DNA from: Pyrococcus furiosus DSM 3638
GTDB taxonomy: Archaea > Methanobacteriota_B > Thermococci > Thermococcales > Thermococcaceae
Assembly: GCF_000007305.1 (NCBI RefSeq)
Contig: NC_003413.1
Location: 1,600,141 to 1,664,140, forward strand
DNA: 64,000 nucleotides
Direction of reading: 5' to 3'
This document shows positions 49,229-50,392 of this stretch, in pieces (the first letter of the stretch is position 1; every line of letters starts with the position of its first letter). The position numbers were made by a program, and so were the translations under genes. The notes beneath the pieces were generated by a model that was not told the DNA's origin, did no database searches, and was given only the letters and a program-made list of their open reading frames with translations.

Positions 49229-49245
49229 TTGGATTTTTTATCCAA
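49229..49245. promoter_or_regulatory. Operator 1, TTGGAT-N5-ATCCAA
   Basis: A perfect 6+5+6 inverted repeat just upstream of the TATA box of the BtuF-like gene. The same repeat recurs at 49272-49288, so it is a paired regulator site rather than chance. Confidence 0.7.
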
Positions 49246-49247
49246 AA

Positions 49248-49258
49248 CTTTTTAAACT
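49248..49258 (+). promoter_or_regulatory. TATA box of the BtuF-like gene
   Basis: CTTTTTAAACT lies between the two operators and about 48 bases before the ATG, giving a transcription start near 49280, inside operator 2. Confidence 0.55.
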
Positions 49259-49271
49259 ATTCTCTTTACTG

Positions 49272-49288
49272 TTGGATGATTAATCCAA
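49272..49288. promoter_or_regulatory. Operator 2, TTGGAT-N5-ATCCAA
   Basis: Perfect repeat of operator 1 with a different 5-base spacer (GATTA versus TTTTT). Centre-to-centre distance is 43 bases, about four helical turns. It runs into the AAGGAGGG ribosome binding site and covers the predicted transcription start, a classic repression position. No other copy was seen upstream of genes in this window. Confidence 0.7.
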
Positions 49289-49300
49289 GGAGGGAATCAC

Positions 49301-50392
49301 ATGAAAAGAGCCATACCTGTATTTCTGCTCATAGTGCTTGTGTGGATTAGTGGATGTATAGGAGGAGGTACCTCAACAATTCCAACAACTCCATCAGCAC
49401 CAGAAACAACAACAATAACAAAAACAGAAAAAGTAGTGGAAACAGTTACACAAACAGTAACGGTAACCCAAACAATGACTCCCCAGAAGTATCCAATTAC
49501 AATAGTCGATTCACTTGGAAGAGAAGTTAAAATAGAAAAGGAGCCAGAGAGGATAGTTTCTCTTGCCCCCAGCATTACCGAGACTCTGTACTTTATAGGA
49601 GCACTTGATAAGGTGGTGGGAGTTACAAAGTTCGACGATTTCCCACCAGATGTAAAGGAAGGAAGGACAATAATTGGAGGATTTTCTGATCCAAACATAG
49701 AGGTAATTGCATCCTTAAATCCTGACCTCATAATAGGAACTAGTATGCACATGCAGTATCTTGACAAGTTACAAGAAATCGCTCCAGTAATAATCGTTGA
49801 TCCAAAGAACATTGACGAAATCTACGAGTGGATAATCAAGTTAGGAAAAGTTGTTAACAGGGAGGAGGAAGCTGTCGGAGTTGTAAACTATATGAAGGCT
49901 ATAGTGGAGGATGTAGAGAGTAAGGTCTCAAATGCCTCCAGGCCAAAAGTCTTCTACCTTTTAGGTTACTGGGATGGATACTGGACGACAGGAAAAGGAA
50001 CATTCATAGATAGCTTAATAACAATGGCTGGGGGAGAAAACATCTTTAGCGATATCGAGGGATGGAAGAAAGTCAGCGCAGAAGACATAGTGGCGAGAAA
50101 CCCTGAAGTGATCATAATTTCATACCACGCAGGCGTTAATCCAGGAGATCTATGCAACACACCTCTAGCAAATACAGACGCTGTGAAGAATGGGAGAGTT
50201 TATGTAATTAGTGATGACAACATAATATCCAGACCTGGGCCAAGAATTGTTCTAGCACTTCAAGAGATAGCATATTTCATTCATCCCGAAGCATTTAACT
50301 ACGCTTACCAACCCAAGGCTTGTGCCCGTTGCTTCTTCATGACTTTTTCTTTATTTTTTAATGAAGACTTATTGTGGGTAGAGTGGTTATAG
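49301..50392 (+). CDS. BtuF/FepB-type ABC substrate-binding lipoprotein
   Basis: A 363-residue binding protein of the cobalamin/iron-chelate class. Signal peptide with lipobox WISGC (cysteine at residue 19), a Thr-rich linker (about 25-65), then IVDSLGREVKIEKEPERIVSLAPSITETLYFIG and NPDLIIGTSMH, the standard fold. No permease or ATPase of this class is adjacent. The tail after YQPKAC (about 20 residues, hydrophobic) overlaps the convergent gene by 35 bases and looks like an unconserved extension. The metal or B12 ligand is unknown; the double operator suggests control by metal or cofactor status. Confidence 0.85.
   Translation: MKRAIPVFLLIVLVWISGCIGGGTSTIPTTPSAPETTTITKTEKVVETVTQTVTVTQTMTPQKYPITIVDSLGREVKIEKEPERIVSLAPSITETLYFIGALDKVVGVTKFDDFPPDVKEGRTIIGGFSDPNIEVIASLNPDLIIGTSMHMQYLDKLQEIAPVIIVDPKNIDEIYEWIIKLGKVVNREEEAVGVVNYMKAIVEDVESKVSNASRPKVFYLLGYWDGYWTTGKGTFIDSLITMAGGENIFSDIEGWKKVSAEDIVARNPEVIIISYHAGVNPGDLCNTPLANTDAVKNGRVYVISDDNIISRPGPRIVLALQEIAYFIHPEAFNYAYQPKACARCFFMTFSLFFNEDLLWVEWL

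Follow-up and report, generated by a model that had tools for sequence, protein, structure and literature searches.

Which regulator, answering to which signal, would act through two identical palindromes placed on either side of the promoter of a single btuF-like gene? The question arises at one locus of the window, by which is meant the whole 64-kb stretch of DNA analysed here, where TTGGAT-N5-ATCCAA occurs twice around a core promoter with the following features:

49229..49245, no strand assigned: upstream operator TTGGAT-TTTTT-ATCCAA, with 3 bp between it and the TATA-like element
49249..49256, + strand: TATA-like element TTTTTAAA, between the operators, recognised by consensus scoring
49272..49288, no strand assigned: downstream operator TTGGAT-GATTA-ATCCAA, covering the predicted transcription start
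49289..49294, + strand: Shine-Dalgarno-like GGAGGG, abutting the downstream operator, recognised from the sequence
49301..50392, + strand: btuF-like gene for a substrate-binding protein of 363 aa (Peripla_BP_2, PF01497), with its ATG at 49301

The preliminary description of this locus, two identical palindromes straddling the promoter of a BtuF-like gene, proved accurate: the copies are exact, their starts are 43 bp apart with the TATA-like element in between, and the downstream copy (49272-49288), at the predicted start, does touch the Shine-Dalgarno-like sequence (49289-49294). These are the only exact matches in the whole 64 kb, and two exact copies were found in none of 1000 dinucleotide shuffles of the window (mean 0.015, maximum 1). 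With up to two mismatches allowed the window contains 10 matches compared with 5.25 expected, and 5 of 100 shuffles reach 10, so these loose matches are regarded as noise. Comparison of the window with Rfam returned no riboswitch, only a tRNA and sR28, and a plasmid search with the window promoter gave no match.

The product of the btuF-like gene matches PF01497 (Pfam), a general periplasmic-binding family, and by eye its N terminus is signal- or lipobox-like. The broad TroA_like model is the only NCBIfam model that it passes, the specific ones (PGF-CTERM-type, BtuF and IsdE, for B12, heme and siderophores alike) remaining below their own cut-offs. Judged by the neighbours and the common motif in relatives, the protein is probably a cobalamin binding protein. 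Its closest btuF matches come from genus g3, at 69-78% identity, and the nearest of the compared genomes to the window is G001, with 25% of sampled words in common. Pyrococcus furiosus and T. litoralis have a 16-kb segment in common. By eye, the C-terminal residues encoded at 50340-50392 extend beyond the point at which several relatives stop, and in genera g4 and g5 (e.g. G014, G087) BtuF is seemingly doubled, with two matching halves in one open frame of ~565-730 aa. The gene had been described as lone, which is correct for the window and incorrect for relatives, where btuF adjoins cbiP or diverges from cobT; btuC in relatives has a motif copy of its own.

The exact motif has a match in 36 of 94 genomes of the family Thermococcaceae. 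A relaxed form, TGGAYWWWWWRTCCA, gives 513 sites in these 94 related genomes, with at least one site per genome, versus 9 for a reversed control. The 60 sites listed were audited, comprising all those of 13 genomes (G002 to G014) and four of the six sites of a 14th, G015; G001 was examined with the stricter motif only. Most of the audited sites (47 of 60) precede genes for B12 uptake or salvage, for a B12-dependent enzyme or its helper, or for ribonucleotide reductases. Uptake is represented by btuF (7 sites, two of them shared with a divergent cobT) and btuC (4), salvage by cobT/cbiP/cbiB-cobS clusters (4), methylmalonyl-CoA mutase (MCM) by its large subunit (9), small subunit (4) and meaB (2), and the ribonucleotide reductases by nrdD (16) and nrdJ (1). 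Eleven of the 60 precede the alpha subunit of an acyl-CoA synthetase and two precede unknown genes. A script assigned 57 of the sites via a reading frame starting within reach, and three were assigned by hand (C18:106514 of G002, before MCM small, and two G005 sites inside an over-long nrdD frame). Gene order was the basis of assignment for G014:1132837 (MCM small beside a PHP-domain gene) and for the salvage-cluster sites G014:754895 and G015:1007548. Pfam confirms NRDD, B12-binding, MeaB, FecCD, RNR barrel and CbiA/GATase_3 domains in G001, while CobT, CbiB, CobS, CobY and MCM large owe their names to visual inspection of the sequence.

The reading of the palindromes as operators had been made to depend on conservation upstream of orthologues, and such conservation is found, with the btuF copies recurring in other genera. 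Among loci fetched by protein search, not via the motif, the operator is present at 27 of 27 distinct MCM large promoters and at 39 of 44 btuF promoters, the other five being starts that fall within a doubled BtuF frame. Protein-search samples were drawn for MCM large, btuF and nrdJ, best-scoring genomes first; promoters whose last 60 bases agree were counted once, and matches were required to reach 45% identity and to start no later than residue 70. The promoters of nrdD, MCM small, meaB, btuC, cobT and L259 come mostly from motif-fetched or neighbouring loci, and for these the operator positions are informative and the match rates little. This genome-wide association of the motif with B12 genes indicates that the sites are operators of a B12 regulon and not of a metal regulon. 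The pair in the window thus very likely serves as operator in a Thermococcaceae vitamin B12 regulon, in which btuF would be repressed and MCM activated.

The motif also stands at the promoter of a gene for a seemingly secreted protein, alike by eye in L242, L256, L257, L261 and L034, and in L098 at that of a different frame with a seemingly secreted product. In L242, L257 and L098 the gene lies near an hcp-like gene. The gene for the apparently secreted protein (with that of L098) is a possible new member of the regulon.

The acyl-CoA synthetase gene is less readily placed. Of the five alpha subunits, PF0233 is the closest to the motif-bearing genes of genera g3 and g4. The primers for PF0233 (ACS3 alpha) of P. 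furiosus encode an N terminus MTVNLDF and a C terminus KYLAEL, according to passages of one report (PMC3942289); examples of PF0233-like motif-bearing genes are L065, which ends KYLSEL, and L071, which has NLDFLFYP. The same passages describe ACS3 as corresponding to the succinyl-CoA synthetase of T. kodakarensis (SCS; PMC3942289), and since the motif-bearing genes resemble PF0233, they probably encode SCS alpha. Against this identification, the G001 copy whose start is most like that of PF0233 (L062) is without the motif, and the motif-bearing G001 copy (L017, beside nrdD) has a different start. SCS would provide an outlet for succinyl-CoA that has no need of B12, alongside nrdDG as a B12-free alternative. 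Most neighbourhoods fetched (L027 and L062-L081) have an ArsR1-DUF211-ArsR2 operon next to the acyl-CoA synthetase gene. The TATA region of this operon resembles TTTATATATGTAAA in many of them, a sequence that is nearly palindromic, and another regulator may possibly act there. Autoregulation was considered for the site at the ArsR operon and set aside, as an acyl-CoA synthetase promoter or that of a CitM-type gene is the better fit for the sites.

The position of the operator, given as operator centre minus TATA start, differs between gene classes. TATA elements were located by consensus score in the region 62-20 bp before the ATG. All 31 distinct MCM large promoters have an operator, at -40 in 25, at -39 or -41 in 2 and at -28 to -32 in 4, as do all 13 MCM small promoters (-39 in 11, -40 in 1, -9 in 1). 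L259, a mutase-linked carboxylase/decarboxylase-like subunit named by eye, has its operator at -39. The btuC operators (n=5) lie at +18 to +24 in four cases and at +37 in one, and those of meaB (10 of 11 promoters) at +15 to +24. An operator is found at 42 of 50 btuF promoters, 24 of which have two, mainly at -12/-13 and at +31 to +35; the eight misses are L185, L186, L187, L189 and L190, with starts that fall within a doubled BtuF frame, and L038, L332 and L339, whose matches begin at residue 54-62 and probably fall within such a frame too. All 24 nrdD promoters have an operator and 11 have two, most lying at +23 to +38 with the second copies upstream. The cobT promoters all have one (18 of 18), many being common to btuF. 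Among acyl-CoA synthetase promoters 15 of the 24 sampled have an operator and 9 are without, the positions being scattered from -46 to +31 with two at -39/-40. The nrdJ operator (21 of 30 loci) is unusually far away, ~170-200 bp from the start. Before this gene for the B12-dependent ribonucleotide reductase, L192-L221 have by eye a long, partly conserved region at 0-200 bp, in which a TATA-like block lies near -90; GACAGGGGTG precedes the nrdJ start in many loci. A long leader may possibly precede nrdJ.

Uptake genes and nrdD thus have their main operator overlapping or next to the core promoter, and the MCM genes have theirs 39-40 bp upstream of TATA. Sites of the regulator TrmBL1 repress when downstream of TATA and activate when upstream, as described in parts of two papers (PMC4706686, PMC4158304). 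By analogy with this rule, repression would be expected from the btuF and btuC sites and from most nrdD sites, and activation from the MCM sites. The operator of meaB, a mutase helper, has a repressor-type position that fits no simple reading, and the acyl-CoA synthetase positions fit a scheme of repression and activation loosely.

Operator pairs with TATA in between recur before btuF in several genera, one copy often being degenerate. The counterpart of the upstream copy in relatives lies directly upstream of TATA and is the one often degenerate, while that of the downstream copy lies between TATA and the ATG. The 43-bp distance had been taken as about four helical turns, suggestive of cooperative binding, an argument that is weakened by the relatives. 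Among the 24 sampled two-operator btuF promoters (at most one mismatch), the copies are 47 bp apart in 10 and 48 bp apart in 8, with 43 (the window), 45, 50 and 31 bp once each and 13 bp twice; 43 bp is thus found in the window alone. The nrdD pairs are spaced by 51 bp in seven promoters and otherwise by 62, 71, and in two by 92 bp. The common spacing of 47-48 bp corresponds roughly to opposite faces of the helix, and a fixed phase is therefore not supported. In L266, L269 and L270 two overlapping copies, with one mismatch each and a TCCGGAC core in common, lie downstream of TATA before btuF and replace the usual spaced pair.

In the mechanism that we propose, a dimeric regulator would bind both btuF copies when B12 is plentiful and block the core promoter, so that B12 uptake would be shut off. 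The same protein would repress btuCD, the salvage genes and the B12-independent alternatives (nrdDG and probably SCS alpha), and would activate methylmalonyl-CoA mutase from its site 39-40 bp upstream of TATA. The two position classes may also be explained by two regulators that read one motif, one repressing from the core-promoter sites and the other activating from -39/-40. Consistent with this, the btuF and btuC operators are absent from -39/-40, where most MCM operators sit, and mutase promoters have, by eye, extra common sequence between operator and TATA. Two regulators are nonetheless unlikely, as the core motif is the same in both position classes and a single protein acting in both ways according to position is known in this group, as parts of the TrmBL1 papers describe (PMC4706686, PMC4158304). 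The regulator might instead sense cobalt or a metabolite of the succinyl-CoA/methylmalonyl-CoA/propionyl-CoA branch, with the B12 genes included because that branch needs B12. Both MCM subunits, meaB, the L259 subunit and the acyl-CoA synthetase, all motif-bearing, would suit such a metabolite, but nrdD (16 of the 60 audited sites), nrdJ, btuF, btuC, cobT and cbiP belong together through B12, not through the branch, which makes this reading quite unlikely. DtxR-type metal regulation of a metal-chelate transporter, for which the generality of PF01497 and the NCBIfam models for B12, heme and siderophores, all equally below cut-off, leave room, is highly improbable given a regulon of B12 genes and no iron or manganese gene recognised at the 60 audited sites (two of which precede unknown genes). 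Of the regulator classes first suggested, then, a cofactor-responsive one is probable and the metal-responsive DtxR class is disfavoured, since the motif genes are centred on B12.

Outside the Thermococcaceae, 8 of the 21 other genomes of the phylum set have 15 relaxed sites, all of which were inspected, while the reversed control has 0. The seven sites of families f2 and f3 are all inside reading frames. In f4, another family of the class, five of eight sites precede B12-binding proteins (Pfam), one of the five sites running into the initial codons of the longest possible frame; two more are inside frames and one is without a near gene. By eye, the operator in the f4 B12-binding-protein cases lies close upstream of a TATA-like element, a third arrangement. 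A wider proposal, plausible and put forward tentatively, is that one archaeal B12-sensing protein with a single operator type represses uptake, salvage and bypasses, activates the mutase, and is shared with f4 for corrinoid proteins.

Several candidates for this regulator were considered. An NrpR-like protein encoded near btuF in G001 has a match in only one of seven motif-bearing Thermococcaceae tested and was rejected. ArsR1, ArsR2 and an Lrp/AsnC-type winged helix-turn-helix protein (wHTH), whose gene adjoins acyl-CoA synthetase in genus g2, match in 7 of 7 Thermococcaceae. They are weakened by having no match at E<=1e-6 among the best candidates scored (at most 36 per genome) in five f4 genomes (77-96% complete), including three with the motif upstream of B12-binding genes. 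The Lrp-like protein is further weakened by its presence in f2 and f5, which lack sites before B12-binding genes. A CarH-type regulator (HTH plus B12-binding domain) was not recognised among the frames read in a PF02310 search of 10 genomes, each of which has a frame of 147-159 aa (the mutase small subunit where checked) and one of 423-487 aa (radical SAM by eye in the three fetched); six further PF02310 matches, beyond those read, occur in G001, G005 and G007 only. No inspected motif site precedes an obvious regulator gene of its own, and a literature search found no paper on an archaeal B12-responsive transcription factor. The operator DNA itself may serve as bait for finding such a factor. 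What began as an isolated palindrome pair becomes a defined, testable B12 regulon in hyperthermophiles, one that predicts the sign of control for several genes.

Rodionov et al. (2003, J Biol Chem 278:41148) reportedly predicted an archaeal 'CBL-box' as the signal of a hypothetical B12 regulator in some archaea. The window motif is probably the same as that box; a literature search by the term CBL-box found no paper. The preliminary description knew of no published Thermococcales motif of this form, yet TrmBL1 (Tgr) binds the Thermococcales glycolytic motif (TGM) TATCAC-N5-GTGATA, likewise a 6-N5-6 palindrome, according to passages of PMC4158304. Insofar as those passages describe it, TGM differs in its half-site (TATCAC there, TTGGAT here) and in serving a sugar regulon instead of a B12 regulon. 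The form shared with this TrmB-family motif makes a TrmB-like protein a lead for the regulator. Bacterial cobalamin riboswitches control B12-independent isozymes. Their control of B12 transport and synthesis genes is described in passages of PMC545781; those regulons are RNA-based, whereas the signal here is a DNA palindrome.
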